Of a stretch of 64,000 nucleotides of DNA, positions 19,749-61,282 are shown piece by piece. This stretch comes from Sulfuricurvum sp. Lineage in GTDB: Bacteria > Campylobacterota > Campylobacteria > Campylobacterales > Sulfurimonadaceae. Made by a program: the position numbers and the translations under genes. Location: NCBI RefSeq assembly GCF_028713855.1, contig NZ_JAQTNN010000006.1, positions 108,835 to 172,834 of the forward strand. Direction: 5' to 3'. Each line of letters begins with the position of its first letter. The stretch's first letter is position 1. The notes under the pieces are model-generated. The model ran no database searches and was not told the origin of the DNA. It saw only the letters and a program-made list of their open reading frames with translations.

Positions 19749-19780
19749 TTAACACAAAATTAACACTAACTGTTCATAAT
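19749..19780 (+). promoter_or_regulatory. Activator-type promoter: TAACAC direct repeat plus -10
   Basis: TTAACAC occurs at 19749-19755 and 19760-19766, an 11-base repeat period, with CATAAT at 19775-19780, eight bases after the second repeat. There is no -35 element; the repeats occupy its place. This is the geometry of PhoB/OmpR-family activated promoters. The same spacing recurs twice at 30891-30968. Confidence 0.65.
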
Positions 19781-20057: not shown

Positions 20058-21398
20058 ATGGATATGTTAGGATTGTATCCCTTATTTTATGTTCCCCATT
20101 TTGGCTCGGCATGGCTAATGGGGCTGACAGGTGCTATTCATATTATGGCATCTCACACATCTGTAGGTGCAGCGCTTTTGTTCGCATTTTTGGCTCACAA
20201 GGCGCAAAAAGAGAACCGCACCGATTTGTATGATTATATGAAACGCTATGGAATGTTTTTGCTGATCTTCTCATACGTTATCGGCTCCATCACAGGACCG
20301 GGTATTTGGTATACGGCAACGGCGGCAAGTCCCAGAGGAATCAGTGCCCTCATCCACAACTTTGTATGGGTATGGGCTACGGAATGGGTATTTTTCGTCT
20401 ACGAAGTACTTGGTGTTTTTGCTCTCATCTATTTTATGGATAAAGTAGATCGAAAAACCCACCTGAAACTCACCTATACTTTTGCGATTGCTTCGGTCGG
20501 AACCCTCGCATTGATCATCGGTATTATCAGCTTTATGATGTGGCCGGGGACAGAAGCGTATTACACGACAGGTTCTGCCAGCGATGCGTTTTTCGGTATT
20601 AACACCTTCCCTCATATGTTTTTACGTATCGGATTCATGATTATGATGTCAGGGATCATCGGGATGATTATCTCTTCCGCCATGCGCAAAGAGAATAAAG
20701 CTCTTTCTGAAGAATTGACGCAAAAGATGGGATGGGTCAGCTTACTGGGTGGTTTCGTCACCGTCTTTTTCTTTATGTGGTATGTTAATACCCTTCCACT
20801 TAATGCGCACACATTGCTCGGAATGCAAAAAGATGCGATCGTTATGAACCGTATTATTCTTGCTGTTTTGTTCTCGATCTATTTCTCTATCGCGATTATC
20901 AAACCGCAATGGGTCACTCGCACACTTGCCATCACGATGATGTTTGTGATCGGTATTGTGGGCGTATGGCCGGGTGAAAAATTGCGTGAAAGTATGCGTA
21001 AACCATGGGTAGCGGGGCAATACGTCTACAGTGATCAAATCATCGGAAGAGATGTCCCCGGCAAAGGGATCAAAGATGAAACAGGGCGATTGTCCGAAAA
21101 AGGGTTGTTAAAACTTGACCTTTGGATTCCTGAACGTCTGCGCACTATTACCCCTGAAAACAAACTCGAAGTGGGAAAACTGCTAACGCGTATTGCCTGT
21201 TCAAACTGTCACTCTCTCGAAAAAGATGGTGTTTACCGACCACTTATACCATTAGCAGGGCCTATGGGTGAAGCAGGGATTAAAGACTACATGAAGAATG
21301 TCATCGGTACGGGCTCAGTCGCCTATATGCCAAAAATTTCTCTTCCGGACGAAGAGTATGATGCGATGGCCGCCTATATTGCCTCGCAAGCCAAATAA
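20058..21398 (+). CDS. Cytochrome bd-type oxidase subunit I with C-terminal cytochrome c domain
   Basis: The 446-residue protein starts with the CydA-like membrane part: nine or so helices, early His in GAIHIMASHTSVGAALLF, GSITGPGIWYTATAASP, and WVWATEWVFFVYEVLG. It lacks the long Q-loop of classical CydA. At residues about 370-446 is a cytochrome c domain with CSNCHSLEKDG and a Met in AYMPKISLPDEEYDAM. This layout matches the OR-C group of the bd superfamily, which probably takes electrons from cytochrome c instead of quinol. AGGAGG precedes the ATG. It is co-transcribed with the next gene (12-base gap). Substrate and function remain unproven in this group. Confidence 0.8.
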   Translation: MDMLGLYPLFYVPHFGSAWLMGLTGAIHIMASHTSVGAALLFAFLAHKAQKENRTDLYDYMKRYGMFLLIFSYVIGSITGPGIWYTATAASPRGISALIHNFVWVWATEWVFFVYEVLGVFALIYFMDKVDRKTHLKLTYTFAIASVGTLALIIGIISFMMWPGTEAYYTTGSASDAFFGINTFPHMFLRIGFMIMMSGIIGMIISSAMRKENKALSEELTQKMGWVSLLGGFVTVFFFMWYVNTLPLNAHTLLGMQKDAIVMNRIILAVLFSIYFSIAIIKPQWVTRTLAITMMFVIGIVGVWPGEKLRESMRKPWVAGQYVYSDQIIGRDVPGKGIKDETGRLSEKGLLKLDLWIPERLRTITPENKLEVGKLLTRIACSNCHSLEKDGVYRPLIPLAGPMGEAGIKDYMKNVIGTGSVAYMPKISLPDEEYDAMAAYIASQAK

Positions 21399-21410
21399 AG
21401 GAGAAAAATT

Positions 21411-22604
21411 ATGGATGCAACATTCATAAATACAATGAAGGATGCTGCCGGCGTACCGTTTTACCCGGTAGTATTCCAAGGACTTTATGTCTTAACATGG
21501 GCTCTGCACGCGGCTTTTGTATTATTGGCGCTTGGCTCTATGGGACTTTCGATCTATGGAAGTACTCAACAAAAAAGTGATCCCTATTGGAAAATACTGA
21601 CACCACATCTCATTATGACCGGCAAAATCAGTATCTCGATTCTAATCGTTTTGGGAGTTGCCCCGCTGTTGTTCACTCAGGTCATTTATGATTCGGGTTG
21701 GTATGTAGCAAATACCCTCTCAGGAGCATGGGTCTTTATCTTTATTTATGCGCTTGTCATCGGATATACAATGTACTATTGGTATCAATACTCCAATAAA
21801 AAGGGCTCATCGAGTAACACCCTGATCGGAATCGTCTCGTTTGCCATCTTGGTATTTTGCGGTGTCTTGATGCACAACTTCGCGGTTGAAGCGATCTCAC
21901 CGACAAAATGGATGGATTGGTATGCACCTAATGGTGTAGTCGATAACTCCGGATGGAATATGCATCTCGATCCTCTTCGACTTGGATTTATGGTGAGCTT
22001 GATGATTCCGGTGACCGGAATTTTTATGCAAAACTACAGCCGATTTTTGAGCACACGAAAAGATTTTGAACCGAAATATCTCGAATTTGTTAAAAAATTG
22101 GGCACCAAAATGGCTATTATCGGCTTGCTCATCAGTGCGGCATTGTTCACCGTATGGATGCAAAAAGAGAATCTCCTTTTACATCCGCTTTCATTGACTA
22201 CGGTTGTTTCGGTCGTTATACTCCTATTATTAGCGATGGGCAATAAAAACAGCTACCTTACTACTGGAGTGCTTGTCATTGTTGCACTGTTGATCTCAGG
22301 TGTCAGAGAGCTTATCCGCTATAACATTATGTCCGGTATCGGATACGATTTGTACGGTTATCACATGAATCTAGAGTGGGAAACGATTGCGATGTTCTTG
22401 CTGACGTTTGCCATACTCGGATTCACAGGGATTGCCTTCATCCTGACTATGGCATGGAAGGTCGGAAAAACAGAAGGTGTCTATACGGCAACTGAAGGTT
22501 CAGCCGTATCTCGGCTCGCTAATGCTTCATTGGCATTGTTTATACTTTGGATCACTGTTTATTTCGGATGGGGAATGGTAGCTCTATTTAAAAATACGCT
22601 CTAA
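21411..22604 (+). CDS. Second membrane subunit of the bd-like oxidase
   Basis: A 397-residue integral membrane protein with about ten helices and no cofactor motif of classical CydB. The N-terminal helices (FYPVVFQGLYVLTWALHAAFVLLALGSMGL) resemble those of the subunit I partner, as expected for the CydA-derived second subunit of the OR-C/OR-N oxidase types. Conserved-looking His residues occur in ALHAAF, TPHLIMTGK and CGVLMHNF. Its gene follows subunit I by 12 bases and shares its ribosome-site style (AAAGGAG). It ends at a hairpin terminator. Confidence 0.75.
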   Translation: MDATFINTMKDAAGVPFYPVVFQGLYVLTWALHAAFVLLALGSMGLSIYGSTQQKSDPYWKILTPHLIMTGKISISILIVLGVAPLLFTQVIYDSGWYVANTLSGAWVFIFIYALVIGYTMYYWYQYSNKKGSSSNTLIGIVSFAILVFCGVLMHNFAVEAISPTKWMDWYAPNGVVDNSGWNMHLDPLRLGFMVSLMIPVTGIFMQNYSRFLSTRKDFEPKYLEFVKKLGTKMAIIGLLISAALFTVWMQKENLLLHPLSLTTVVSVVILLLLAMGNKNSYLTTGVLVIVALLISGVRELIRYNIMSGIGYDLYGYHMNLEWETIAMFLLTFAILGFTGIAFILTMAWKVGKTEGVYTATEGSAVSRLANASLALFILWITVYFGWGMVALFKNTL

Positions 22605-22726: not shown

Positions 22727-24802
22727 TTACCACTTCCCTTCAACCGATAAAAGAACCTGTGGTTTTGTGTGCTCTTTATCCACTTGAGTTTGGGTGATCG
22801 CTCCCCCTGCATCGTACAAACGTGACGTTGTCTCTACGGTTGAAGCAGTGATATTTTTCACGTTAAACTGCAATTTAAACGCTTTATTGAGCCGTTTATT
22901 GGCATAGAGATCGAGTGTACCGTACCCTTTTTGCGATTGGGATATGAAATACTCTTGCGGATCATCGTATCCGCCGACGTAGCGATAAGCCGCTCCATAG
23001 GTAATTTCTGACGCTTTGAGGGTATGGTCAAAACCGAGGTTACAGGTAAAACTCGGTGTTTGTAAAATCTCTCTTTTGACTCCCGTTAGAGTGTTGGTGA
23101 GCGATGAGTCTTGCAAGGTTGCATTGGCGAAAATACCGAAACCTTCCACATACTCTTTGAGCGATTTTTTAAGCTCTAGCTCGAGACCCCACAATGACCC
23201 CTCTCCTGCATTTTCAGGGGTTTGCTCATAGCGTCCCGATACGGAGTTAAAACGGATCGCATTTTCGATTTTATCATTGATGGTTCGATAAAACCCGCCG
23301 ATACTCGCCAAGCCTTTATCCTCAAAAAAGTGTTCATACCGAAGCTCATAACTCAGTGCTTTTTCTTCGTTCAAATTCGGGTTTCCGATCACATCGGGAC
23401 GATGGATGCTGTTTTCATCGAGGGTGCTGTTGGTACTCGCCGATAGTTGGCTGAGTCTGGGGAGACGGACGGTTTTAGCGACACTCGCACGGATATTGTC
23501 TTTTGATGTCACCTGAAACAGTGTGTGCAGAGATGGCGCGAAGTAACCCAGATTTAACGTCGCACCATAGTCTCTATTTAATGTCTCATAGCGGAGTCCT
23601 GGGGTAATGACGATCCCCTCATTCAATGTATATTCGTCTTGGATATAGAGCGAGAGTTTGTCCTCTTTCATCTGGATTTTATCGTTCACCGAGGTGACAT
23701 CTACCCCGTTTAAAATCCTTGTGGTTTCATCGATCTGATCGCTTCTTTTGAGTTCAAATCCGCCTTTCATGAAATGATCATCTCGAAGTGCCGTATAATC
23801 CCCCTGAAGACCGTAAAACCGACTCAATACATAATCGTGCTCTTTACGATTGGTAGCAGAAGGGGTCGATAATGACTCTAAATCACCGCGCTCTTCGAAC
23901 GAGTGGATTTTTGCTTTCCACTCAAAAATATCATCTCCGAATCGGTGCTCTGCCCCCAATGCTGACCAAAGCATCGTGTTGGTCGCATCGTCATGACTTC
24001 GGTAACGGCTCGTTGGAGTAGCTGAGCCCTCGGTCATAGTCGTCGAAGTGATCGTGTCACTATCATGATTAAACGTCACCGACCCGTCATAGAGTATTTT
24101 AAGGCGTGAGGAGGGGGAGTAGTTGAGCTTTGCACGCACACCCACGGAGCGATTTTTGCTCCTATCATCACGCTCTTCATTGGTATCCAATGCTGTTTTA
24201 TCGGTAACAATATCCGTCCGATCTTCTTTAATATTATTAGACGCATTCAGATTTACCAAATACGAAACTTTATCGAGTTTCCCTTCTCGTTGCACATACG
24301 CGGTTTCGCTCAAATCCTCACCGTAAGCACCGAGTGTCACTTTTGCAGAGGTTCGCCCCTCCGATTTTGGTTTTTTGAGAACAACGTTGACGATCCCCCC
24401 CATCGATTCGGCAGTGTACTCCGCCGAACCGTTCGTCATCACCTCGATCCGCTCAATCATATCGGGTGAAATCTGCTCCAGAGGACTAGAGCGTTTACTG
24501 GTTCCGGTCGAGGTTGCTTCACCGTCGATCATCACCACCGTATATCCCTTACCCGGAGCACTAGCGGGGCCTTTACCATTTGGGATCGTTACTCCGGGGG
24601 TGCGTCGGAGAATCTCTAACGCATTCGAATCACCGTATTGTGTTAATTCCTCTGCGTTGATAATCCGTTTTGCGATGGAATTGTCCCGTCGCTCATCGAT
24701 AGCGGTATACACCTGGGCAATTTGGATTTTATCGAGGGTAATAATCTCTTGCGCACAAACACTCGAACCTAAAATGATAAAATTTAAAAGATGATGATTC
24801 AC
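22727..24802 (-). CDS. TonB-dependent outer-membrane receptor (operon A, second receptor)
   Basis: A 691-residue receptor. GTG 24802 is chosen because AAGGG lies seven bases upstream and a signal peptide starts there (VNHHLLNFIILGSSVCA). The 40 residues before it in the ORF track lie inside the activator gene. The plug domain (about 25-140) shows SNALEILRRTPGVTIPNGKG, YTVVMIDGEATSTGT and IERIEVMTNGSAEYTAESMGGIVNVVLKK. The barrel fills the rest and ends in VLLSVEGKW. The plug resembles the FecA-like/OMP_b-brl_3 type more than BtuB. It is the last gene of the six-gene leftward operon, one base after the activator stop. The ligand is unknown. Confidence 0.88.
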   Translation of the reverse strand: MNHHLLNFIILGSSVCAQEIITLDKIQIAQVYTAIDERRDNSIAKRIINAEELTQYGDSNALEILRRTPGVTIPNGKGPASAPGKGYTVVMIDGEATSTGTSKRSSPLEQISPDMIERIEVMTNGSAEYTAESMGGIVNVVLKKPKSEGRTSAKVTLGAYGEDLSETAYVQREGKLDKVSYLVNLNASNNIKEDRTDIVTDKTALDTNEERDDRSKNRSVGVRAKLNYSPSSRLKILYDGSVTFNHDSDTITSTTMTEGSATPTSRYRSHDDATNTMLWSALGAEHRFGDDIFEWKAKIHSFEERGDLESLSTPSATNRKEHDYVLSRFYGLQGDYTALRDDHFMKGGFELKRSDQIDETTRILNGVDVTSVNDKIQMKEDKLSLYIQDEYTLNEGIVITPGLRYETLNRDYGATLNLGYFAPSLHTLFQVTSKDNIRASVAKTVRLPRLSQLSASTNSTLDENSIHRPDVIGNPNLNEEKALSYELRYEHFFEDKGLASIGGFYRTINDKIENAIRFNSVSGRYEQTPENAGEGSLWGLELELKKSLKEYVEGFGIFANATLQDSSLTNTLTGVKREILQTPSFTCNLGFDHTLKASEITYGAAYRYVGGYDDPQEYFISQSQKGYGTLDLYANKRLNKAFKLQFNVKNITASTVETTSRLYDAGGAITQTQVDKEHTKPQVLLSVEGKW

Positions 24803-24803
24803 T

Positions 24804-25622
24804 CTATTTCCCTTCTTCGCTTTGCATATTACACATAAACGCATCACACGCCAACACTGCCGCACCGTAGGATGTCGTGATTTGCGGATACTCAGGGACA
24901 AAAATTTTATGCCCCAGCTCATTTTCGATAGCGTTCACCAACCCATCATTGAGAGCAGGTCCTCCGTCGAAATAGACGTTCTCTTTAACCCCTACCCGTT
25001 TCACCAGTTTTACGATCCGTTTGGCGATAGAGTAATGCACTCCCGAGACGATGTCTTCGACGCTGTGGTTATTGCCTAGCAATCCGATAATCTCCGATTC
25101 GGCAAATACGGCGCACGTACTACTGATCGAGAGCGGTGTCCCCACTGATTTAAAATGATAATCACTCAGCTCATCCACCCCAATTTCCAGATTCATCGCT
25201 ACGACATCGAGAAATTTTCCCGTCCCCGCCGCGCAACGGTCATTCATAGCAAAATTGACCACATTCCCCTCGGCATCGAGTGAAATCGCCTTGCTGTCTT
25301 GTCCGCCGATGTTGATGATCGTTTTGATATTTCCGTAGCTTTTGGCGGCTTGTTGCGCTCCGATGGCATTGGCAGTAATCTCGCTGATATTTTCATCCGC
25401 CTCTTTAAACAGCTTACGACCATATCCGGTGGCTACCGTATAGACCACCTCGCTCTCATCAATACTTAACTCTTTTAGCAGCTCTGCCAACGCCTCTTGG
25501 GCGTATTTGTAAAACATACTCCCGCTTGCGCTGATTTTATGCCCGATTAGATTTTTATTCTCATCCGCGACACTGATTTTGATCGCGGTAGAGCCGATAT
25601 CTATTCCTACAAAATATCTCAT
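24804..25622 (-). CDS. ATP-dependent activator of a 2-hydroxyacyl-CoA dehydratase-type enzyme (BadF/HgdC family)
   Basis: A 272-residue ASKHA-fold ATPase. Phosphate-binding motifs are GIDIGSTAIKI near the N-terminus, NIGGQDSKAI at about 105-115 and FDGGPALNDGL near 225. The two cysteines that hold the dimer-bridging [4Fe-4S] cluster are in MNDRCAAGTGKF and ISSTCAVFAESE. Such activators push low-potential electrons into their partner at the cost of ATP. The partner gene overlaps it by 4 bases upstream. The pair resembles E. coli YjiL/YjiM and the characterised double-cubane cluster protein system, not a complete two-subunit dehydratase. Confidence 0.9.
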   Translation of the reverse strand: MRYFVGIDIGSTAIKISVADENKNLIGHKISASGSMFYKYAQEALAELLKELSIDESEVVYTVATGYGRKLFKEADENISEITANAIGAQQAAKSYGNIKTIINIGGQDSKAISLDAEGNVVNFAMNDRCAAGTGKFLDVVAMNLEIGVDELSDYHFKSVGTPLSISSTCAVFAESEIIGLLGNNHSVEDIVSGVHYSIAKRIVKLVKRVGVKENVYFDGGPALNDGLVNAIENELGHKIFVPEYPQITTSYGAAVLACDAFMCNMQSEEGK

Positions 25623-26890
25623 TTTTTCATTCTCTTTCGATTTTTTAATGACTCGATAAACGCTTCAACCCGCGTCGTAAGCTGTCCGTGTTGTGAGGGG
25701 CTGTAATCGCTCTCGATATAAAGAATCGGGATACCCTCACGCTCCATTGCCGCCAAGACACTGCGTTGTTCCATCTCATACACCTGACACCCCGCAAACG
25801 CCTGATAGATCACCCCATCACCGCTGTAACTGCGCACCAGTTGGATGATTCTGCGGATTCGGTCGTCATTTTGAGTGAATATCGGGCAAGTACACGCTTT
25901 GAGATATTTATCCGAAACCGAATCGATCATGTCATAGAGATTCCACTCATCCACTGCCACCATATCGTTAAACATACGATTCGAACTGCACGTCTCATCG
26001 GCGACGATGATTGCATCGCTCTGTTCGATAATGAGTGGGATTTTATAGTTGGGGAAAATCGGCGGTGAACCGGTATAGACGATACGCGGACTCGCTTTTC
26101 CAGCCACGTTGATACTATCACTCGCCCGTTGTTCCAACTCTGAAACCAGTTTTTCGACCGCACTTATCCACTCATCTATTTTGTCAAAGAAAAAAGCGTT
26201 CGTGACCAAAAACATATCGACACCCAAAATCGGAACTGCTTTGTTTTTTCGAAACTCGGTGAGCTTATGATAGAGCGATTGTGCATACCCCACCTTTTTA
26301 ATCGCACTCTCCAGATTGGATCTTGTCAGCTTTTTCCCCTGAAATTTAGAGAGTTTCACGGCGAAACTTTTGACACTCTCGCGCCAATAGTGACGACTCT
26401 CTTCACTCTCTTTGGTACGAGGAAATCCGACATCGATTACGGTATGTCCGAAACTCTCGATGATGGCTCCCGCTTTGGTCTTTTGGTCGCATGTCGTCGG
26501 AGAAAAAGTGATGTCGGGCTTATCGGAAAAATTATCCGAAGCGAACCACCCCACTGTTGCTTTGACCAGCGGGCACGACTTTTGAGGCAACAGATCACCA
26601 CCGATCTCATCGTCGGTATAAAACCCGTTACAGAGTCGGATCGGTACAGCGTCCAGTGCATAGATGATTTCCGAGGGGATTTGGATACACATCGTCCCGA
26701 TTTTCGCTTTCCCCTCGTGGAGCGGATGGTGATGACAATAGACTTTTTCAAACAAATCGTAAAAATAGCCCATGCTCTGGATTGGGGATTTAAAATCCTC
26801 CCGAAGTGCATTGAGGACGCTTATCGCCTCCATCGCTTTATGGCGGTTTTGACGCTCTGCCGATGTCTCAATCGTGTGTTCAGTGTGCAT
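25619..26890 (-). CDS. Double-cubane-type 2-hydroxyacyl-CoA dehydratase homologue (HgdB/BcrC family)
   Basis: The start at 26890 is set by AAGGAG five bases upstream; the 40 extra residues of the ORF track lie in the ferredoxin gene. The 423-residue protein has the HgdB/BcrC two-domain layout with family cysteine motifs KIGTMCIQIPSE, QKSCPLVKAT, SPTTCDQKT and FAGCQVYEME. A single-subunit homologue with its own activator fits the double-cubane cluster protein family, which reduces small molecules with ATP-driven electrons and whose natural substrate is unknown. The setting between TonB receptors and a polyferredoxin is unusual. Fermentative amino-acid dehydration is unlikely because no CoA-transferase gene is nearby. 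Confidence 0.85.
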   Translation of the reverse strand: MHTEHTIETSAERQNRHKAMEAISVLNALREDFKSPIQSMGYFYDLFEKVYCHHHPLHEGKAKIGTMCIQIPSEIIYALDAVPIRLCNGFYTDDEIGGDLLPQKSCPLVKATVGWFASDNFSDKPDITFSPTTCDQKTKAGAIIESFGHTVIDVGFPRTKESEESRHYWRESVKSFAVKLSKFQGKKLTRSNLESAIKKVGYAQSLYHKLTEFRKNKAVPILGVDMFLVTNAFFFDKIDEWISAVEKLVSELEQRASDSINVAGKASPRIVYTGSPPIFPNYKIPLIIEQSDAIIVADETCSSNRMFNDMVAVDEWNLYDMIDSVSDKYLKACTCPIFTQNDDRIRRIIQLVRSYSGDGVIYQAFAGCQVYEMEQRSVLAAMEREGIPILYIESDYSPSQHGQLTTRVEAFIESLKNRKRMKK

Positions 26891-27893
26891 GATTCTCCTT
26901 GATCTGATCCATCGCCATCCGTACGAGAAAGCCCTCTTTGGTCGATTCGAAAATAGTGGCTCCCATAAAATTAGCCTCCAAACACCCATTCTCAGGACAC
27001 GCCGCGACACATTTGAGACAGAGGGTACAATCTTCGGTGACTAGATTTTTGCTCGTCACGTCATCGGCGATCTCTAAAATATCCATATCGCACGCGCGGT
27101 AACAATCGCCGCATTTGGTACATTTTGAACCGTCTTTATAGAGTTTGAGCAGTGCGGGTTTCGAGAAAATGTACTGCAACGCCGCCATCGGACAAAAATA
27201 ACAAAAGAACCGCTTTTTAACGAATGATCCGACCAAAAACAGCCCGACGATTATCATCCCCAACGTCGTCATCACCAAATCCGTTTTCGACGAAAAGTCG
27301 ATATAGAACTGATTAAAATGACCCGTAAATGCCGGAATCATCATCCGTCCGGGACAAATATCACAAAACGGCATCGAGAGACCGTTGGGGAGTTTCGGAA
27401 GTCCGAACACCGAGTTGGCGATCATCACAGGAAGAAGTAACAACAAGATCAACAAGATGTATTTAATACTTTTGATCTTCCCGCGATTTGCCCATGAATA
27501 TTCACTGTAACGAATTTTGGTTTTTTCACGCACCATCGTGAGCCAGTCTTGCATTGTCCCCAGAGGGCAGACGAAACCGCACCACCCTTTATTCAATGCC
27601 CAAAACCACACCGCAAACATCCCCAAAGAGATGAGAAACGCATACCCCGCAAACCCGACGAATCCCTCAAGCGGATGTTTTAAATCATGTTGAAGCTCTC
27701 CGACATAACATTTGCCTCCTGTCCCCTCTCCGTTAAACACACACGCAAATGTCGGAAGTTTATCGCCTAAATCAAGCCCGATATATCCCCCGTAAACGAC
27801 CAAAACAAACGCGACAATCTGAAACCAAAACCGAAACCGTACGAGATTCATATTATTCACCGCACGGCGGAGACTAAACTTATTCTTCGTCAA
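26880..27893 (-). CDS. NapH/NosR-like membrane polyferredoxin (operon A)
   Basis: A 337-residue membrane iron-sulfur protein. Four to five helices are interrupted by CGFVCPLGTMQDW, CDICPGRMM and CYFCPMAALQ, the CxxxCP motifs of the NapH/NosR/RdxA family. Two [4Fe-4S] ferredoxin sites are at the C-terminus: CTKCGDCYRACDMDILE and CTLCLKCVAACPENGC. Relatives pass electrons between quinol, cytoplasm and periplasm. The TTG start is supported by AAGGAG seven bases upstream; it overlaps the previous gene by 14 bases. It could feed the double-cubane enzyme, or reduce a periplasmic metal or chelate; context does not decide. Confidence 0.88.
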   Translation of the reverse strand: MTKNKFSLRRAVNNMNLVRFRFWFQIVAFVLVVYGGYIGLDLGDKLPTFACVFNGEGTGGKCYVGELQHDLKHPLEGFVGFAGYAFLISLGMFAVWFWALNKGWCGFVCPLGTMQDWLTMVREKTKIRYSEYSWANRGKIKSIKYILLILLLLLPVMIANSVFGLPKLPNGLSMPFCDICPGRMMIPAFTGHFNQFYIDFSSKTDLVMTTLGMIIVGLFLVGSFVKKRFFCYFCPMAALQYIFSKPALLKLYKDGSKCTKCGDCYRACDMDILEIADDVTSKNLVTEDCTLCLKCVAACPENGCLEANFMGATIFESTKEGFLVRMAMDQIKENHAH

Positions 27894-28833
27894 AATAAAT
27901 CTCCTTGGGCGTTTTGCGTTTGCGCCGTCGGTTGTAATACAGCCCCAGAGAAAAGACCAACATCACCCCGATAGCGGTTGCAAACCCTAATACTTGTGAT
28001 TCGTATTCAAGCGGCGATGCACCAAACGAGAGGGGTAAACTCATCACATATCGGACACCATGATAGGCTTCGCCCTTGTACACCCCCGATTCGTTCACAT
28101 CATACGACGCTTCAACAATCATTTTTTCAGAACGTTTTTTCTCTTTTTCGGTAGTCGCATAGGTACTGCGCGGAATTTCGAAGGAGAGCACCCCCTCATC
28201 ATCGGGTTGGATCGTAGCGTTCCAACCGCTCTCCATACTCACCCGCAATGACACGTCTTTTTGCACTTTCCCTTTGTAATACACCGTGAAAGGGGCAATA
28301 TCACCTGAGTAAAGACAGCAGTTAATATGGTGTTTACGAATCGGTCTCTCCATCACCAACTCAAAAGGAAGCTGCGCGAGAGGTTTCTGATCATAATGCG
28401 AATCGTTCGTTTTCCCTCGAACCTCTTTGAGTAGCGTTTGAGAAATATTCCCCTCTTTGTTGTGAATTCTCATCGATGAAAGGTTGACGTGAAGAACACC
28501 CTCTTGAACTGATTTTTGTTCAAAATAGAGACGATAACCCCCTTTGTGTATCGGGGTAAAAGCGATTTTCCCGCCCGTCACATTCAGCTCGCTAACCGCA
28601 TGATCCATATCACGAACATAGACGACGGCATTTTTAAAATCGTGCTCTTTTTTATTCTCCTGAAGTGTCCCTTTTTTAATGACAAATTCTTTGATATTCG
28701 GCGCTTTTTCGCCGCCGCTACAACACGATTTTTTCTTGGATTCATCGAGCCATAGTGAATCTTGTGCAAAAAGAGAGACACACATACACATCGATATAAC
28801 CGCTATCTTCAATTTAAACGTGAACATTCTCAC
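27880..28833 (-). CDS. Periplasmic Cys-rich protein with C-terminal membrane anchor (DUF4198-like)
   Basis: Signal peptide (about 1-23), then SKKKSCCSGGEKAP and later HHINCCLYSGDIAPFTVYYKGK: two adjacent-Cys pairs that could bind a soft metal. The middle (about 170-250) reads like the DUF4198/Ig-type fold found in periplasmic metal-uptake proteins (NATIQPDDEGVLSFEIPRS). A single C-terminal helix (LGFATAIGVMLVFSLGLYY) and a basic tail anchor it inside out. Operon B has a positional equivalent at 33214 with His in place of the Cys pairs. Start GTG 28833 (GGAG at six bases) or ATG 28827 are both possible. The metal role is inferred. Confidence 0.7.
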   Translation of the reverse strand: MRMFTFKLKIAVISMCMCVSLFAQDSLWLDESKKKSCCSGGEKAPNIKEFVIKKGTLQENKKEHDFKNAVVYVRDMDHAVSELNVTGGKIAFTPIHKGGYRLYFEQKSVQEGVLHVNLSSMRIHNKEGNISQTLLKEVRGKTNDSHYDQKPLAQLPFELVMERPIRKHHINCCLYSGDIAPFTVYYKGKVQKDVSLRVSMESGWNATIQPDDEGVLSFEIPRSTYATTEKEKKRSEKMIVEASYDVNESGVYKGEAYHGVRYVMSLPLSFGASPLEYESQVLGFATAIGVMLVFSLGLYYNRRRKRKTPKEIYFDEE

Positions 28834-28851: not shown

Positions 28852-30861
28852 TCAGAATGTCACTTTTAACGTACCGAAAACAATCCGCCCCGGAGAAACA
28901 TAGTATTCGGTATAGCTTTTATCAAATAGATCATCGACAGAAACGCTCGCTTCAACATTGCTTCCGAATTTGCGAGAAAGTTTTAGATCCAACGTCGTAT
29001 AACTCTCATATTCAGCCGTATTAGCATCATTGCTGTAGCGATCACCGACATATCGTGCAGAAATTTTGCTATCTACCAGATTCGGGTTTGCGTACAACAG
29101 ACTGAGTGTCCCTTTATGCTTTGGAACTTCAATCAGATATTTACCCTCCAGCGCTATATTTTCTGTATACTCTTCAATCTTGGAGATGTTATAGGTATAG
29201 TTCGCAAGCACATGGAGTTGCTCAGAAATCGGATAAGATGCATCAACTTCAAGTCCCTGTATTTTTACTTTCCCGACATTCGTTTTGGTTTGTGCGGCTG
29301 TGTATCCTCCGCTCGGTGCAGTAGTGATGTAATAGAAAAAATCTTTGGCATCATTTTGATACGCTGTTAAACTAATTTTTCCGTCATTTAAAATCGTTTG
29401 ATCCACCCCTACTTCGTAGGAGACAACACTTTCTGGTTTTAGATCGGGGTTTCCGTACCAAATTTTCGATCCGGATACAAACGTATTGTATAAATCTGAT
29501 AGGGTAGGGGCTCGATAAGCACTACCCGCAGAAACTCGGAAGGATGTATTATCATTTAAATGGTATACCGCACCGATTTTTGGGCTAAACCCGTTGGTCG
29601 ATGTCCTGTCATAATACGTATCCGTTGTAGCCAAAGAGCTGTCATACCCATGACCGTCATAATTCGTCCATGAATCGTATCTTCCCCCTAGATTGATGAT
29701 CCAGTCTTGCCCTAAAAATATCTCATCTTGGAAAAAAAGACCTAGGTACTTTTGCTTTCCTTCAACTTTGATATTTTTTCCGCTCCCGTCAATATAATGG
29801 TTAAACCGATCGATACTCCCCTGACGAAAATCAACACCGGTGACAAACGTACTGGTTCCGAATAAAGGATCATCCGTATAGGGTGCCGTCCATTGAATCA
29901 TCCCTCCTCGATCAATATTGGTACTGGAACTCTCATATTGAACAGCCGTTTTAGCCGTATTGGCAGAGTCATAGTCGCTGTATTCATCTTTGATAAAGGC
30001 TTTTACCATTAACTCGGTTTCATTACCGAATGTTTTCGTATAACCGGTCGTATACGTTTTTTGTTCCTGAGTATAAGGGTTAAACTCATTGATAGGAAGT
30101 GTCCCCGTTGTCTGATTATCATAATACGATCCCGAAAGAAATACCGAAGATCTCTTATCCAAATCATACGTTACTTTACCGTTGAGATTATTTCGCTCCG
30201 TCCCTTTGTCACGTGTATATGATTTAGTATTTACAGAAGTTTCAGGATTATAGCCATCACTGGTTGTTCTATCTCCAGAGAGAACATACCCTACTTTGCC
30301 CACTTTTCCCATCGTTGAAAGCGAGGCAATTTTAGTATTCATACTCCCATAACTGAGTGTTACATCACTTTTGGATTCGCTGGTTGGATTTTTTGTAATG
30401 ATATTAATAACCCCACCCATAGCACCCGAACCATACAATGCCGATGTTGCCCCTTTTACTATTTCAATTCTTTGGATCGTTGAGACAGGGATTCTATTCC
30501 ATTCAATATCTCCACCATAAAGATCATTCATCGGTACACCGTCTATAAGCAGTAATACGCGTCCCTCAGTCGTCCCCCCGAATCCACGCATAACTACCTT
30601 GTTAGACGTTCCGCTCGTCACTGCACCCATGCTGTGCTTTAAATCCAGACCAGACACTTCTTTGAGCAATTCATCCGCACTTTGGGCAACAGAGTTCTTG
30701 ATCTCTTGTTGTGTAATTACTTCTATACTCGCAGGGACATCGATAACTTTACGTTCCGTACGCGTTGCTGTAACCGACACATCTCCTAAATCAACAACTT
30801 CACTCGCATAGGCACTACTGCAAATTATAATCGCTGCCATTGATAACTTAATTGGATTCAT
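28852..30861 (-). CDS. TonB-dependent outer-membrane receptor, BtuB/CirA-like (operon A, first gene)
   Basis: A 669-residue receptor beginning at ATG 30861 (AAGGA seven bases upstream), nine codons inside the ORF-track start. After the signal peptide comes VVDLGDVSVTATRTERKVIDVPASIEVITQQEI, a TonB box and plug start of BtuB/CirA style. Plug motifs are LLKEVSGLDLKHS, VLLLIDGVPMNDLYGG and IQRIEIVKGATSALYGSGAMGGVINIITK. The barrel ends with IVFGTLKVTF, a good terminal Phe. First gene of the leftward operon, driven by the left half of the shared operator. Its ligand is unknown; a metal chelate is one option. Confidence 0.92.
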   Translation of the reverse strand: MNPIKLSMAAIIICSSAYASEVVDLGDVSVTATRTERKVIDVPASIEVITQQEIKNSVAQSADELLKEVSGLDLKHSMGAVTSGTSNKVVMRGFGGTTEGRVLLLIDGVPMNDLYGGDIEWNRIPVSTIQRIEIVKGATSALYGSGAMGGVINIITKNPTSESKSDVTLSYGSMNTKIASLSTMGKVGKVGYVLSGDRTTSDGYNPETSVNTKSYTRDKGTERNNLNGKVTYDLDKRSSVFLSGSYYDNQTTGTLPINEFNPYTQEQKTYTTGYTKTFGNETELMVKAFIKDEYSDYDSANTAKTAVQYESSSTNIDRGGMIQWTAPYTDDPLFGTSTFVTGVDFRQGSIDRFNHYIDGSGKNIKVEGKQKYLGLFFQDEIFLGQDWIINLGGRYDSWTNYDGHGYDSSLATTDTYYDRTSTNGFSPKIGAVYHLNDNTSFRVSAGSAYRAPTLSDLYNTFVSGSKIWYGNPDLKPESVVSYEVGVDQTILNDGKISLTAYQNDAKDFFYYITTAPSGGYTAAQTKTNVGKVKIQGLEVDASYPISEQLHVLANYTYNISKIEEYTENIALEGKYLIEVPKHKGTLSLLYANPNLVDSKISARYVGDRYSNDANTAEYESYTTLDLKLSRKFGSNVEASVSVDDLFDKSYTEYYVSPGRIVFGTLKVTF

Positions 30862-30890
30862 TAATATCCTTGTATTAAAAAAATTCAAGA

Positions 30891-30921: not shown

Positions 30922-30956
30922 ACTTAAATTAACTACTTAACACTAATGTAACACTT
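30903..30956. repeat. Palindromic operator between the divergent TonB operons
   Basis: AGTGTTACATTAGTGTTAA (30904-30922) and its exact reverse complement (30937-30955) are separated by 14 AT-rich bases; one further A/T pair extends each arm to 20. Each arm carries two copies of the TAACAC box 11 bases apart, so four sites in all face both operons. Confidence 0.85.
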
Positions 30957-31003: not shown

Positions 31004-33204
31004 ATGTCCAAACCCCGCCGAATCTCTCACAGTATCCTACTGTCAACACTCCTTGCAACAACGTGTTTTGCAAGTGAAGACCTCGGAATCATCGGTATTG
31101 ATTCCACCACAATCGATGATCGGTTTCACTCTTCTCGAACCGAAGTATCACCTACTGCTACCATTGACGGTCAAAAGGTAGATGATGCCCACGTTGAAAA
31201 TATTCAACAGGTTTTGCAAAGTATTCCGGGGATGACAACCGAGGTAACCTCGGGAGACAGTATCAAAATCCATATTCGAGGAGTTGAAAATCAACGCTAT
31301 ATGGGAGAAAAACCTGGGGTTGCCGTTGTCATTGACGGAGTTCCGGTATTTGAGCGAACCGGATCAGTCAACATAGATCTCGATGATATCGCCTCTATCA
31401 AAGTAATCAAAGGGGGAGCTTCGTATCTCTTCGGGGATGACGCGCTTGCCGGAGCCGTCATCATCACGACTAAAAAGGGGACGGCAAACAAATCGACAAT
31501 TTCTACCGAGATAGGGAGTTTTGGATATCACAAACTCTTAGCCGAAACTTCCCTTTCCAAAGATTCCTACAATGCACGCATTCAGGCAAGTGAGAGAAAA
31601 AGCGACGGATATTGGGCTAATTCAGGATATACGGCGCAATACGTAGACGGTAAAATACAATATTACATTGACGACTCCAGTGACCTTACCTTCGGCGCTG
31701 AAGCTTCAAAGCGCAAAAAAGACTCCCACGGAACGGTTGGCGGTGTTATCCAAGCACTTAACGATCCCAAAAGTATCTCGACAGGAACCGATGGCGGGGG
31801 TCGTGATTATGCTAGGATGTTCGATGTCGATCTACTGAAACTCTATTTAACGTACAGCAAAGATTTTGGTAACAACTCCAATCTTCTCATTAATGCATAC
31901 CAATACGGTGACGATACGACCTTTGATTCAGGGCCCCAAAAATACAGTTCGACCGGAGCGGTTGTTATCGCAGATGATGCTTACACCACACTCAATGATT
32001 ACCACCAGATTCAACGGGGATTAAAAAGCGAATACCGCAGTTCAGGAGACTATCTCGCTTATCTTCTCGGTGCGGATCTGCGCAACAATACTTATAAAAA
32101 CAAAACGTCGTATTTGGTCGATTTCAAAACCAGTGCATTCTCTCCTACCATCTACCATGCAGGTACTATTACAGGGGATAACAAAACAACAGAAGCGGTT
32201 TATGCTCCCTATGCAGAGATCAAAGTCCCTCTAGGCGAGGCAACTACGCTGACCCTTAACGGACGTTATGACAACATCCAGCTCGACTATACCAATTACT
32301 TAAACCCTGGTGACCTCCAAAAAGATTTTAATGTCTACTCTCACCGTATCGGTGTGTCACATAACCTTACCCCGAATACGACCCTCTTTATGAGCCGTTC
32401 GACCGGATTTCGCGCCCCATCCATCGATCAGCTCTTCAACGGAACCATCACCCCGTCTTCTAAAGTGCAAAGCAACCCTGATTTGAAACCCGAGCAATCG
32501 GTCGATTACGATTTGGGAATAAGAGGAACTATTCCAACTGTCGATAATACATTAACCTACGAAGCCACCCTCTTTTGGCTCGATCGTAAAAACTATATCA
32601 TGTCCTCTATCGGACAATATGCTGCAGCTACGACAACCCATCCTGAACAGTACGAAAATATCGGCGGAATGCGTAGCAAAGGGGTAGAACTCTCTCTCTC
32701 AAAAGCGATGCCAAAAAAACTTTCTCCTTTGATCTCGCCTATACCTATCTCGATTCCTACTTTACACAGTATGAAAATTTTTACCTCGGGCTTGGGAGTC
32801 CGTATGCTCCGGGCTTTACGCAGGTACATTACAACCTGACCGGAAATGAAATTCCACGTACCTCACGCCATACTTTAAACCTGACCGGCAATATCAATGT
32901 TTCACCTCAAACACTTATCTCTACCGAACTGACCGCGAGATCAAACTACTACGCCGATGAGCTCAATCAGCTCAAAATGCCGGGTTATAGCGTCGTTAAT
33001 CTTTTGGTAAATCACACTGAAAAGTACAACGGTTACAAAGTCGATATGTTTGCCCGTGTCAATAACTTTTTTGACAAATACTATTACAACACCGTCCGAA
33101 GCAGCGGCGATCGTGACTACAACCACATCTACGATCAAGAAGACCTCTCTATCACCGTCAATCAAGGTCGTGAATTTACTGTGGGCTTGTCCGTCAAATT
33201 TTAA
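31004..33204 (+). pseudogene. TonB-dependent receptor, frameshifted in an A7 run (operon B, first gene)
   Basis: The first 570 or so codons encode a signal peptide, a plug (NIQQVLQSIPGMTTEV, VAVVIDGVPVFERTG, IKVIKGGASYLFGDDALAGAVIITTKKG) and most of a barrel. At CCAAAAAAACTT (A run 32713-32719) the frame breaks; the listed ORF then reads 40 foreign residues to 32839. In the -1 frame the barrel resumes at once (TFSFDLAYTYLDSYF) and ends properly in FTVGLSVKF at 33204. One extra A would restore a 733-residue receptor. The run is a perfect A-AAA-AAA slippery heptamer in the right phase. It may be a sequencing error, phase variation, programmed frameshifting or a real pseudogene. Confidence 0.85.
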
Positions 33205-33213
33205 AGGGATCTC

Positions 33214-34032
33214 ATGAAAAAAATACTATTGCCACTCCTGTTCACCGCTACCCTTTGGGGATACGGGGACGGAGTTATTTATTGGGCTCCACATGTTTCT
33301 CATGGAGGTGAGCATTCTCATGGTAAACACGGGGGACACGGTATGGGCGAAGCCACTATGCTTCATGCCATGAATTGTGATGGGAATAGCTCTGTTATTC
33401 TGATCAAACCAGATTTGTCCAAAGAAGATCTGAACCTCAGCGACACGACGCTCAATCTCCCTAAAACCTCTGTTGGCGGTTATTATGCCCTCGTCCTCAA
33501 TCGCCACACCGATAACCAAGTCGATAGTGCTATCCGTTACCTATCCCAACAAGGGCGTCCGAGCAAAGTCTCTCCGACAAAACTGACCGCACTCCCTAAA
33601 ACAGATTTGGAGATTGTCCCTAATCCATTGCACCGCGAACATGATCGCTATACCGCATCCAAAAAATATCGATTTCTCTTAACGTTTCAGGGCAAACCGC
33701 TCTCCAATACACCGATCACTCTGGAAACGAAAAATGCCTCTGTTGTGAACTATACCACCGATGAAACAGGCGCAGTGACGATCACTTTTCCGAACGATTT
33801 TAAAGAGGTATCAAGTGTTAAAGAAGAAAACAAGCCTTCCGAATTTCTCCTCAAAACCCGCTACCAAGATGGAGAGTTAGTCTATGTTACTACCCTCTCA
33901 ATGCCCTATTCGCTCAACCCGAATGATTACTGGCAATCCCAAAAGTACGGTGCAGGTGCCGTATTTATCGGTTTCCTAGGGGGATTGCTCCTCTATCGCC
34001 GCAGCAAAAAAACAGGAGTATCCCGTGGATAA
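33214..34032 (+). CDS. Periplasmic His-rich protein with C-terminal anchor (DUF4198-like)
   Basis: A 272-residue protein. Signal peptide at 1-16, then a His/Gly-rich metal-binding-like stretch (HVSHGGEHSHGKHGGHGMG) and AMNCDGN. The central domain includes PLHREHDRYTASKKYRFLLTFQGKPLSNTPITLET, typical of DUF4198 Ig-like domains associated with metal uptake. One C-terminal helix (GAVFIGFLGGLLLYRR) and a basic tail end the protein. It is the counterpart of the Cys-pair protein at 27880 in the opposite operon. AAAGG precedes its ATG, nine bases after the receptor stop. Function is unknown; metal binding is inferred from composition. Confidence 0.72.
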   Translation: MKKILLPLLFTATLWGYGDGVIYWAPHVSHGGEHSHGKHGGHGMGEATMLHAMNCDGNSSVILIKPDLSKEDLNLSDTTLNLPKTSVGGYYALVLNRHTDNQVDSAIRYLSQQGRPSKVSPTKLTALPKTDLEIVPNPLHREHDRYTASKKYRFLLTFQGKPLSNTPITLETKNASVVNYTTDETGAVTITFPNDFKEVSSVKEENKPSEFLLKTRYQDGELVYVTTLSMPYSLNPNDYWQSQKYGAGAVFIGFLGGLLLYRRSKKTGVSRG

Positions 34033-35026
34033 ACTATTGACCGTGACCGCCCTTCGACGGATTGTTCAACTTACCGCATTTGTTTTTTTCGTCTACGGTG
34101 CGATGATTTTTACCACGTTCTATACCGGAGACAAACTGACCCAAAGTCTCCCTGCTCTCTCATGTGCGTATGACATGAAAGGGGGAGACTTCTGTACTCT
34201 CATCCCATTACAGCATCAGATGGATCACCGCGTATCAAGCATTTTCACCCAAGGCGAAAAAGTGTTGCCGGCACTCATGGGAACCCTCATCACCCTCGGA
34301 ACCGTCGCCGTTCTCATCCTCATCCTCAACAAAGCGTTTTGCGGTTGGCTCTGTCCGCTCGGATTTTTTCAGGACGTTTTCACGATGATCGGAACCAAGC
34401 TGGGACTTATCCAACTCGGAAGCCTTTCACGTGAAACAGTGAATAAAATCCGCCCGATCAAATGGTTTGTCTTCCTCTTTTTAGTGTTGATTCTCCCTCT
34501 TTTAACGGGGATCGGCTTTCTAGGGCACGAATGGGGCAATCCTTACTGCTCTATCTGCCCTAGCCGTATTATGACGACAACCATAACCGGAGACATGTCA
34601 CAGGTTTATATCTCTCAGGCTAACTGGGGATATTTTGCCCTCTCCCTCATCGCCGATCTGATGTTCGGTTTGATGGTTGCCCTTGCCCTCTTCGTCCGTC
34701 AACCGTTTTGCCGTATCTGTCCTATGCTGCCGATGCAAACCTTGTTTAAAAAAATCGGCTTGTTACGCCTCGTCAAAAATGGCGATTCACACTGCGAATC
34801 GTGCGGTAACTGCGTCAAAGCATGCCCTATGGATATTTATGAGATTCAAGACCAAGCCGAAAACAAAAATATCACCCACGCGGATTGTACCCTCTGCGGA
34901 CGATGTGTCGAATTTTGTCCGCATGATGGAATAATGAATTTCAAATACGGTCCGTTTACCATCCTCTCTTCTTCCAAAGAAGGGTTTAAAAAACGAACTA
35001 AAATAGACAAATGGTGGAAAGCATAA
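34025..35026 (+). CDS. NapH/NosR-like membrane polyferredoxin (operon B)
   Basis: A 333-residue relative of the operon A polyferredoxin, with the same plan: membrane helices, CGWLCPLGFFQDVF, CSICPSRIMTTTITGD, CRICPMLPMQTLF, then two ferredoxin clusters CESCGNCVKACPMDIYE and CTLCGRCVEFCPHDG. GTG start with AGGAG six bases upstream; it overlaps the previous gene by 8 bases. Here no double-cubane enzyme accompanies it; a DsbD/TauE-like membrane protein follows instead, so electrons may go to the periplasm. The duplication of this gene in two facing operons argues for a shared core function. Confidence 0.88.
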   Translation: MDKLLTVTALRRIVQLTAFVFFVYGAMIFTTFYTGDKLTQSLPALSCAYDMKGGDFCTLIPLQHQMDHRVSSIFTQGEKVLPALMGTLITLGTVAVLILILNKAFCGWLCPLGFFQDVFTMIGTKLGLIQLGSLSRETVNKIRPIKWFVFLFLVLILPLLTGIGFLGHEWGNPYCSICPSRIMTTTITGDMSQVYISQANWGYFALSLIADLMFGLMVALALFVRQPFCRICPMLPMQTLFKKIGLLRLVKNGDSHCESCGNCVKACPMDIYEIQDQAENKNITHADCTLCGRCVEFCPHDGIMNFKYGPFTILSSSKEGFKKRTKIDKWWKA

Positions 35027-35030
35027 ATCG

Positions 35031-35678
35031 ATGGAAATGATGACTCTCCTTTCCCTTTTTATTGTCGCCCTCTCCTATGGGGCAACCGCTTGTATGCTCA
35101 CCTGCATGCCGTTGCTCTCACCGATTCTTTTGGCAAACAGCGCAACACGGCAGCAAAGCTTGAAAGTTCTCCTCCCGATCAGTCTGGGACGGATCAGCGG
35201 CTATATTTTCCTCTCCCTCATCGCCTATCTCGGTGCAAGCATGATTAAAACACTCATAAGCGACACGACGTTGATGGGGTATCTCCTCGGCAGTGTTACC
35301 CTTATCCTCGCCTGGCGCTTGTGGTTTTCGCTGAGAGATTCGGCGTCTTGTTGCAACACTTCACCCGATGCACCGCAAGGCAACATAGCCCTATTTATGG
35401 CGGGAATGTTCCTCTCTATGTCGATATGCGCACCGGTTGTCACCATGATGACGCTCAGCGCCACAACTACTTCTATCGGATGGGCGATTGCTTATGGATT
35501 AGCCTTTGGGTTGGGTGCGACACTGTTGTGGTTTCTCTTTTTTTCAGTGGTTCTTACTCAGGTACTCAAAGAGAGTCTGAAACATCTCTCACACTATCGA
35601 AATGTTTTACAACACTTAGCTCCCCTTCTCCTCGCAGGGGTCGGCATTGCAATTTTTAAAGGATGGATACACTTATGA
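35031..35678 (+). CDS. DsbD/CcdA- or TauE-like membrane protein
   Basis: A 215-residue protein of six helices. The N-terminal helix has GATACMLTCMPLLSPILLAN, a Cys-x(3)-Cys in a helix followed by a proline, and helix four has SMSICAPVVTMMTL, which resembles the paired cysteines of the DsbD/CcdA or UreH-like transmembrane domain. A cytoplasmic SCCN loop lies between. CcdA-type proteins carry thiol electrons across the membrane, which would suit an operon with a polyferredoxin. A metal transporter of the SafE type is the alternative. Confidence 0.75.
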   Translation: MEMMTLLSLFIVALSYGATACMLTCMPLLSPILLANSATRQQSLKVLLPISLGRISGYIFLSLIAYLGASMIKTLISDTTLMGYLLGSVTLILAWRLWFSLRDSASCCNTSPDAPQGNIALFMAGMFLSMSICAPVVTMMTLSATTTSIGWAIAYGLAFGLGATLLWFLFFSVVLTQVLKESLKHLSHYRNVLQHLAPLLLAGVGIAIFKGWIHL

Positions 35679-36358
35679 TGACAACAGCACGCAAATCGTT
35701 TCTCCTCTCACTCATGTTTCATTCCCTAATGGGATCATTGGCTTTTATGGTCTTGGTACAGATGCGTACTCCCCCACCCATGCTGAAAATTCAGCTTCAA
35801 CATATGACGCTTGTCTCCCTATCCGATTCAAAACCTATTCCGAAGCGAGCGGAAATTTCCGAACCGACACCCGCAATCACACCGCCACAACCAACCCCGA
35901 TAAAACCGTTGGTTACACAGCCGATTGTTCCCACAAAAGCCATCAATCCACAACCGATTGCCCCATCCGTTCAAGCCGCACCGACTACTCTAGCGACTCC
36001 GACACCTATCGTCACAACCGCTCCAGTAGCAGACGTTACCCCTCCCCCTAAAGCAAAAATCAATACCGCCTCTGAACTGCAATCGTTTAAGGCCTCTTTA
36101 CGAACCAAGATCAAACAAAATCTCCGTTATCCCTCAGCCGCACGACGCAGAGGGATGGAAGGGGAAGTATCGGTTCGGTTTACCGTATTTGCGGATGGTT
36201 CGATTCGTGAGATAGCAGTTCGACAGGGAGAAGATATTTTTCACAATGCGGCAAAAGCGGCAGTCGCTTCAAGCTCAGGGATTGATGTTCCTAAAAGTCT
36301 CACAGAATCTTTACCGATGGAGATGGATCTAATCTTGGAATTTAAACTAAACAGCTGA
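35675..36358 (+). CDS. tonB: Energy-transducing protein TonB
   Basis: A 227-residue TonB. N-terminal membrane anchor (SFLLSLMFHSLMGSLAFMVLV) with the usual Ser/His positions, a Pro/Thr-rich periplasmic spacer (about 65-130, PQPTPIKPLVTQPIVPTK) and a C-terminal TonB domain (about 140-225) with YPSAARRRGMEGEVSVRFTV and GSIREIAVRQG. The ATG at 35675 overlaps the previous stop by 4 bases, so I prefer it over 35663. No exbB/exbD genes are in the window, so it must use a pair encoded elsewhere. It probably energises the receptors of both operons. Confidence 0.9.
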   Translation: MMTTARKSFLLSLMFHSLMGSLAFMVLVQMRTPPPMLKIQLQHMTLVSLSDSKPIPKRAEISEPTPAITPPQPTPIKPLVTQPIVPTKAINPQPIAPSVQAAPTTLATPTPIVTTAPVADVTPPPKAKINTASELQSFKASLRTKIKQNLRYPSAARRRGMEGEVSVRFTVFADGSIREIAVRQGEDIFHNAAKAAVASSSGIDVPKSLTESLPMEMDLILEFKLNS

Positions 36359-61180: not shown

Positions 61181-61256
61181 CAGTAGTTCCTAAAAAAGTT
61201 ACAGGATTGTGTCATACGAGGGCTTTGAGACAGCAAAGTTTAGGTTATTAAGAGTC

Positions 61257-61276
61257 TAACCCCGAATAGGGCTAGG
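61257..61276. other. Hairpin downstream of the small exported protein gene
   Basis: CTAACCC with GGGCTAG (one mismatch) around CGAATA, in the 102-base gap before torD. There is no T run, so it may be a stability or processing hairpin, not a terminator. Confidence 0.3.
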
Positions 61277-61282
61277 CTGGTG

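Follow-up and report, generated by a model that had tools for sequence, protein, structure and literature searches.

A sister subfamily of double-cubane cluster proteins in a conserved TonB receptor/polyferredoxin gene cluster, with a possible role in copper acquisition

The physiological role of the double-cubane cluster protein (DCCP) was stated as unknown in the literature of 2025 (PMC11971306). The window analyzed here, a stretch of 64,000 nucleotides from Sulfuricurvum sp., carries a DCCP-like reductase gene and the gene of its ATP-dependent activator amid genes encoding TonB-dependent outer-membrane receptors (Table 1), which raises the question of the process that this gene pair may serve. 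The original prediction, made from the sequence alone, had offered two answers, namely the reductive cleavage of an imported compound or a role in metal release.

Table 1. Coordinates of the features discussed, numbered from the first letter of the window
Feature	Position	Strand	Remark
Third operator copy	19749..19766	-	∼300 bases upstream of the oxidase-like genes at 20058-22604
Second TonB-dependent receptor	22727..24802	-	Last operon gene; GTG start near 24802; PF00593
ATP-dependent activator, BcrAD/BadFG type, DCCP-R-like	24804..25622	-	PF01869 BcrAD_BadFG, E 4.4e-53
DCCP-like double-cubane reductase (HGD-D)	25619..26890	-	Single gene; PF06050, E 1.7e-89
NapH/CcoG-like membrane polyferredoxin	26880..27893	-	Two 4Fe-4S motifs
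P5, periplasmic DUF4198-fold protein	27880..28833	-	C-terminal anchor; weak DUF4198 by sequence
TonB-dependent receptor	28852..30888	-	First operon gene; likely start 30861; PF00593/PF07715
Operator copy 1, GTGTTACATTAGTGTTAA	30905..30922	+	Intergenic between the divergent operons
Operator copy 2	30937..30954	-	Divergent, head-to-head with copy 1
TonB receptor of the divergent operon	31004..32839	+	Frameshifted near 3' end
His-rich DUF4198-like protein	33214..34032	+	Divergent, reductase-free operon
Second NapH-like polyferredoxin	34025..35026	+	38% identical to the first
DsbD_2 membrane protein	35031..35678	+	Four invariant cysteines in family
TonB	35663..36358	+	PF03544

Identity of the reductase and its activator

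The reductase open reading frame starts with an ATG at position 26890, encodes 423 amino acids and shares a 4-base overlap with the adjoining BcrAD_BadFG gene, which had rightly been taken for its own activator. The activator exceeds the TIGR00241 cut-off and contains the stretches NDRCAAGTG and STCAVFAESE, and its cluster-binding motifs, with the cysteines of an ASKHA activator, are kept in 72–73 of 74 copies. As the sole HGD-D gene of the genome, the HgdB/BcrC homologue is single-subunit, as had been proposed, and it is predicted to form a homodimer, no second HGD-D subunit being encoded.

The nearest solved structures are those of DCCP (7yyl/6eno, E ∼1e-64), followed by BzdN (3e-19) and HadC (6e-13), and the predicted model of the reductase, which is of moderate confidence (mean pLDDT 73), yielded TM scores of 0.80–0.82 to DCCP, 0.72 to BzdN and 0.68–0.71 to HadC. 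The [8Fe-9S] ligands of BzdN are Cys36, Cys73, Cys100, Cys263, Cys293 and Cys327 (PMC11971306). Reductase residues C69, C107, C135, C302, C336 and C369 (424-residue count from base 26893; minus 1 when counted from the ATG) align with these ligands and with DCCP 6eno, the last three BzdN ligands standing one column left of the mark because the BzdN fragment in the alignment is one residue short after C100. In line with the family cysteines claimed at the outset, all six are kept in 23 of 23 clade rows and in DCCP, and several are lost in HadC and MbdN. The reductase therefore has the cysteines of the ligand set for an [8Fe-9S] cluster, for which ATP-dependent reduction is predicted.

In a maximum-likelihood tree, the 23 window-type reductases form one clade (support 97/95), apart from a grouping of DCCP, E. 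coli YjiM and the other Campylobacterota DCCPs, with BzdN, HadC and MbdN placed outside both groups on long branches. Since the reductase scores 327 bits against the NCBI DCCP equivalog NF040772, below its cut-off of 350, it is assigned to a sister subfamily rather than to DCCP proper, and judged by its sequence the clade forms a new subfamily, placed with good support as sister to the DCCP/YjiM clade. It is true that fold and Pfam family (HGD-D) are common to this protein and to the ordinary 2-hydroxyacyl-CoA dehydratases and benzoyl-CoA reductase components; however, the single HGD-D gene of the genome, the retention of all six double-cubane cysteines and the tree position away from HadC, MbdN and BzdN make membership in either enzyme type extremely improbable and refute it as far as sequence allows.

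Both enzyme types were also considered individually. Class I benzoyl-CoA reductase (N- and O-type subunits) was ruled out by the single gene and by model scores that are too low, the reductase reaching neither the BzdN model (79.6 vs 453.8 bits) nor the BcrC model (43.4 vs 421). The same single gene, together with a tree position not with HadC, ruled out a 2-hydroxyacyl-CoA dehydratase, which has two different HGD-D subunits (HgdAB, HadBC). The assignment to the double-cubane type thus withstood the phylogeny, with true dehydratases excluded. Within one Campylobacterota genus, the YjiM-like DCCP genes of many species (nine genomes listed) contain a single in-frame stop, mostly TAG, which may reflect decay or an artefact of the match boundary.

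The gene cluster around the reductase

The minus-strand gene train of the window runs in the order receptor, P5, polyferredoxin, reductase, activator and second receptor, with gaps of at most 18 bases or overlapping genes, as expected from the suggested operon with TonB receptors and a polyferredoxin. CirA and BtuB are the solved receptors nearest to the first of the two, and other Sulfuricurvum loci retain the second, often behind exbB-exbD. In the divergent operon, the receptor gene (31004–33205) is broken near 32720, and its missing C-terminus continues in another frame; the break could be an artefact of assembly, or the gene could be a pseudogene or undergo phase variation. Elsewhere in the window, two oxidase-like membrane proteins are encoded at 20058–22604, of which the former ends in a cytochrome c domain and the latter has no Pfam match. 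Genes of a DMSO-reductase-type complex (iron-sulfur subunit, ethylbenzene-dehydrogenase-type heme subunit fused to cytochrome c, assembly chaperone and a ferredoxin protein) occupy 59533–63980 and continue past the window end.

The reductase clade was found in 17 of 298 Campylobacterota genomes, other genomes carrying a distinct DCCP group of ∼30% identity. Neighborhoods were read at 25 loci of the clade and 15 of the other DCCP group; named genomes, once scanned, contributed further loci, which belong to Sulfurimonas, Sulfurovum, Arcobacter, Hydrogenimonas, Methylococcales, Rhodocyclaceae, a Thiodiazotropha symbiont and a Bryobacterales MAG. The named relatives of 90–98% identity are Sulfuricurvum. 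The resulting cluster, which extends over Campylobacterota, Pseudomonadota and Acidobacteriota, comprises a TonB receptor, a DUF4198-fold metal-binding protein, a DsbD-like protein with four invariant cysteines (DsbD_2), a NapH/CcoG-like polyferredoxin, the DCCP and the activator. Among 59 non-redundant loci with enough flank, the polyferredoxin and DUF4198-like genes were each present in all 59 and the activator in 55; the DsbD_2 gene was found in 53 and so was the TonB receptor, confirming the anticipated co-occurrence, with ExbB–ExbD in about 24 and TonB in 21. Recurrence at 59 loci in three phyla places the gene train far beyond chance. The ordinary DCCPs of the phylum have their own activator, and in the stretches read receptor, polyferredoxin and DUF4198 neighbors occurred in none of their 15 loci. 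Taken together, we hold with high confidence that the reductase is of double-cubane type, represents a new subfamily and belongs to a fixed TonB/polyferredoxin cluster.

Several further genes were observed near the cluster. RND pump genes are neighbors in 32 of 82 loci, mostly directly after the activator; an AcrB-type gene stands directly 3' of it in seven named loci (L097, L103, L107, L113, L117, L123 and L141) and others, RND genes with partners occur in L125, L129 and L137, and MacAB-like genes in L151. Such pumps may possibly recycle a chelator. EF-hand proteins and PepSY_TM genes also recur near the cluster (among others in L137, 2733–3410; L132, 6930–7544; and L113), the former in five loci and the latter in three. 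Zinc-uptake-like genes (ZnuABC, Zur; judged by eye) were seen once beside the reductase cluster and once beside an OprC-type receptor (L143, 12172–14418; L217, 1579–3966).

Among the 298 Campylobacterota genomes, this polyferredoxin type (E below 1e-100) and the reductase clade occur in precisely the same 17, and by this strict pairing the polyferredoxin is dedicated to the reductase. It contains conserved CxxxC/CxxC motifs and two 4Fe-4S motifs, and its conserved C51, C62, H69 and C177–C180 lie in two loops read as periplasmic, the topology being inferred from sequence. NapH models were not reached (68.4 vs 234 and 67.4 vs 213 bits), suggesting a relative of NapH rather than NapH itself. A related polyferredoxin, CcoG, is a cupric reductase, and NosL is a Cu(I) chaperone (PMC7558416). 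P5, as modeled (mean pLDDT 78), is nearest to metal-bound DUF4198 structures, namely Zcp (Zn/Co/Cu) and a Ni-bound DUF4198 protein. In its place, most Campylobacterota other than Sulfuricurvum have a long protein that combines a NosR-like iron-sulfur, a NosL and a DUF4198 part; this long chain was seen in L046–L057 and L095–L149, and also without a reductase (L205/L220, L235).

The receptors are far more variable than the reductase. In L058, L060 and L061, the reductase is 91–98%, the activator 93–96% and the polyferredoxin 89–96% identical to the window proteins, whereas the receptor in the same slot reaches only 30–31%; in L059 and L062 it reaches 71–84%. Grouped at 40% identity, the 78 receptors near the reductase make up 12 groups. 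That the reductase stays constant while the receptors change would favor release of a common cargo over breakdown of one special compound. Related receptor operons without a reductase exist on the plus strand of the window (31004–36358) and in L220, so the reductase represents an added capability that is not needed for uptake as such.

These observations also bear on the possibility that the reductase acts in the cytoplasm on the chelator or on a co-imported small molecule, breaking N-N, N-O, C=S or isonitrile bonds, with the polyferredoxin as electron supplier. The constant co-occurrence of reductase and polyferredoxin would suit this reaction, a studied DCCP reduces small molecules with multiple or N-N bonds, namely acetylene, azide and hydrazine (PMC11971306), and some chalkophores contain such groups, as in diisonitriles (PMC9600254) or a diazeniumdiolate (PMC11085572). 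However, an inner-membrane importer (ABC or MFS) was not recognized in the core cluster, and the receptors are exchanged while the reductase stays constant, and we therefore regard chelator breakage as unlikely. Of the two roles first envisaged, reductive cleavage of an imported compound is accordingly less favored, on the same two grounds, and the role in metal release has gained strong support.

The shared operator and the nature of the metal

The metal concerned is most likely copper, as indicated by an operator shared with OprC-type, NosL and SCO1 genes. The 18-mer found as a head-to-head pair between the two divergent operons also precedes an OprC-type copper receptor in the window's genome, and most Campylobacterota loci have a related direct repeat with an 11-base period ahead of the cluster; this direct-repeat operator was absent before the cluster loci of Pseudomonadota and Acidobacteriota. 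Direct repeats with an 11-base period are used by OmpR-type regulators. Genes for an OmpR-type response regulator and a histidine kinase were seen near operator or reductase loci (L223, 7173–9567, directly behind an operator; L214, 10347–12105; L125, 17073–19226) and are candidates for the regulator of the operator; the response regulators themselves lie at 7737–8420 in L223 and at 11455–12105 in L214. Scans for sigma-70 promoters and terminators gave results at chance level.

Exact matches to GTGTTAnnnnnnTGTTAA numbered 31 in seven reductase-bearing genomes, where the reversed control gave 0; ten genomes free of the reductase had 22, with 3 for the control. An OprC-type receptor (plug motif GACPNRMDPP) follows one site by 45–63 bases in all seven reductase-bearing genomes, and the same receptor follows a site in five of the ten reductase-free ones. 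Elsewhere among the latter, the genes after the site encode SCO1/SenC (L228) and NosL proteins (L233, L238), and a DsbD_2 gene next to the cbb3 oxidase gene ccoN follows a site in L206/L215 and L246, these NosL, Sco1 and cbb3-oxidase associations coming from single or few genomes, with or without the reductase. In the window's genome, ccoN is preceded by two looser copies. The operator also precedes several genes without an evident copper link, such as a phosphomannomutase-type gene (L184, L190, L227) and those of L200, L230 and L244. Judged by the genes that it precedes, the operator marks a regulon of copper uptake and copper enzymes, which may respond to copper or, since cbb3 oxidase genes share the operator, to oxygen or redox.

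The receptor that follows the operator in the window's genome, a 3'-cut copy, has TIGR01778 (TonB-copper) as its best model, with 113.8 vs 472 bits and thus below the cut-off. OprC, which reads GACPNRMD at the plug motif, is the solved structure closest to this copy, and we call the operator-linked receptors (L155/L212 and others) OprC-like. OprC binds copper through a CxxxM-HxM motif (PMC7558416). CPNRM and, at the corresponding place, an HxM were found in six of six full-length OprC-type copies, HxM having been paired by eye from a weak local alignment. The reductase clusters of L117 and L118 even include an OprC-type receptor among their own genes.

The operator sites before DsbD_2–ccoN genes and, less exactly, before ccoN of the window's genome would also accommodate a reductase that helps to build or repair a copper or oxidase center, or that removes an oxidase poison (NO, cyanide, azide), with the receptors merely co-regulated. 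Nevertheless, the reductase is missing from most genomes of the class, and its tight order with receptor and DUF4198 genes in three phyla indicates uptake, making such an oxidase-related function very unlikely. The idea that the cluster serves only to supply N2O reductase with copper was rejected: NosZ is weakly associated with the reductase (8 of 17 vs 80 of 281 genomes) and absent from the window's genome.

Uptake of iron (or heme, cobalt, nickel), the common operator reflecting oxygen or redox control only, has on its side that the cluster receptors score best with siderophore, heme or B12 models, that the metal in DUF4198 proteins can be Ni, Zn, Co or Cu, and that L132 carries a PepSY_TM gene, a kind known from siderophore reduction. 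Beside the operator sites of 17 genomes (seven with and ten without the reductase), however, no feoB or fur was noticed and OprC-type, NosL and SCO1 genes recur, and the PepSY_TM protein CrpH of Bordetella is linked to copper (PMC13038864), so that we consider iron uptake quite unlikely. The Shewanella operon SO4740–4743, considered as an iron precedent, was dropped, SO_4740 being a DUF2061 protein. Since the DUF4198 and NosL proteins, the co-regulation with OprC-type receptors and the oxidase genes all indicate copper, the reductase cluster is probably part of copper acquisition, and copper would be its cargo.

A possible electron route and its relation to known systems

We tentatively propose, with somewhat less than even confidence, that the double-cubane reductase and its activator form the cytoplasmic part of a TonB-dependent system for chelated copper with an electron release route. 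Exchangeable outer-membrane receptors would carry copper complexes to the periplasm, where the DUF4198 (often also NosL-like) protein would bind them. The activator would spend ATP to drive electrons into the [8Fe-9S] reductase, which would hand them to the dedicated polyferredoxin in the inner membrane; the latter would reduce the copper complex and thereby free Cu(I) for the cbb3 oxidase and other copper enzymes. This order of electron carriers is proposed because no chelate importer was recognized, because the CcoG-like polyferredoxin is strictly paired with the reductase, and because of the precedent of Bordetella CrtA/CrpH. In its details, the route from activator to copper complex is possible but held loosely, and we infer in which direction the electrons flow as well as the step of release.

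Ordinary Cu(II) reduction does not normally require ATP-boosted electrons, and the reductase therefore appears oversized for the copper task. To account for this energetic weak point, either the complexes would be unusually hard to reduce or the reductase would attack the chelator. In methanogens, activation of MCR involves an ATP-dependent complex in which nitrogenase-like clusters serve as electron path (PMC12176620). Although the proteins differ, this precedent makes it plausible that the task of the reductase is to deliver electrons and not to turn over a small substrate. A more far-reaching version, which we consider doubtful, is that powering copper acquisition is the natural role of one double-cubane branch, the ATP-driven reductase either sending very-low-potential electrons through the membrane to a copper chelate or using them on the chelator (isonitrile, N-N or thioamide opening).

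If the mechanism is true, copper acquisition in low-oxygen, sulfidic waters runs on ATP-driven low-potential electrons. Nitrogenase, benzoyl-CoA reduction and MCR activation are known to rely on such chemistry; to our knowledge, metal uptake is not. Our literature search found nothing on the DUF4198 protein 'Zcp', nor anything that connects double-cubane proteins with TonB or copper, and we found no description of the Campylobacterota copper or oxidase regulon indicated here. As a whole double-cubane subfamily has fixed partners and an operator common to copper genes, its role becomes directly testable.

Compared with DCCP/DCCP-R of Carboxydothermus hydrogenoformans (PDB 6eno, 7yyl), the window pair is alike in fold, in the six ligand cysteines and in the arrangement of a single-gene reductase followed by its activator. 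It differs in sequence (31% identity to DCCP), in its separate clade below the NF040772 cut-off, in an additional conserved Arg86 and C-T-C-P motif, and in its fixed TonB/DUF4198/polyferredoxin cluster. E. coli YjiM/YjiL and the YjiM-like pairs of Campylobacterota likewise share the superfamily, the six cysteines and the adjoining activator, but stand on the opposite side of the tree, and the Campylobacterota pairs are without receptor, polyferredoxin and DUF4198 neighbors.

Among copper systems, the copper-starvation operon of Bordetella encodes the TonB copper receptor CrtA, which imports chelated Cu(II), and the candidate periplasmic copper reductase CrpH (PMC12914433, PMC13038864). With CrtA–CrpH and with OprC/NosA of Pseudomonas, the present cluster shares the combination of a TonB receptor with an inner-membrane reductase, sometimes with its own ExbBD–TonB; neither of them has an ATP-driven low-potential electron source, CrpH being a heme PepSY protein. 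Like the cupric reductase CcoG and like NapH, the cluster polyferredoxin has four membrane helices, CxxxCP motifs and two cytoplasmic 4Fe-4S motifs, whereas it stays far below the NapH model, carries the conserved cysteines and histidine in its predicted periplasmic loops and, unlike either of them, is linked to a double-cubane reductase.
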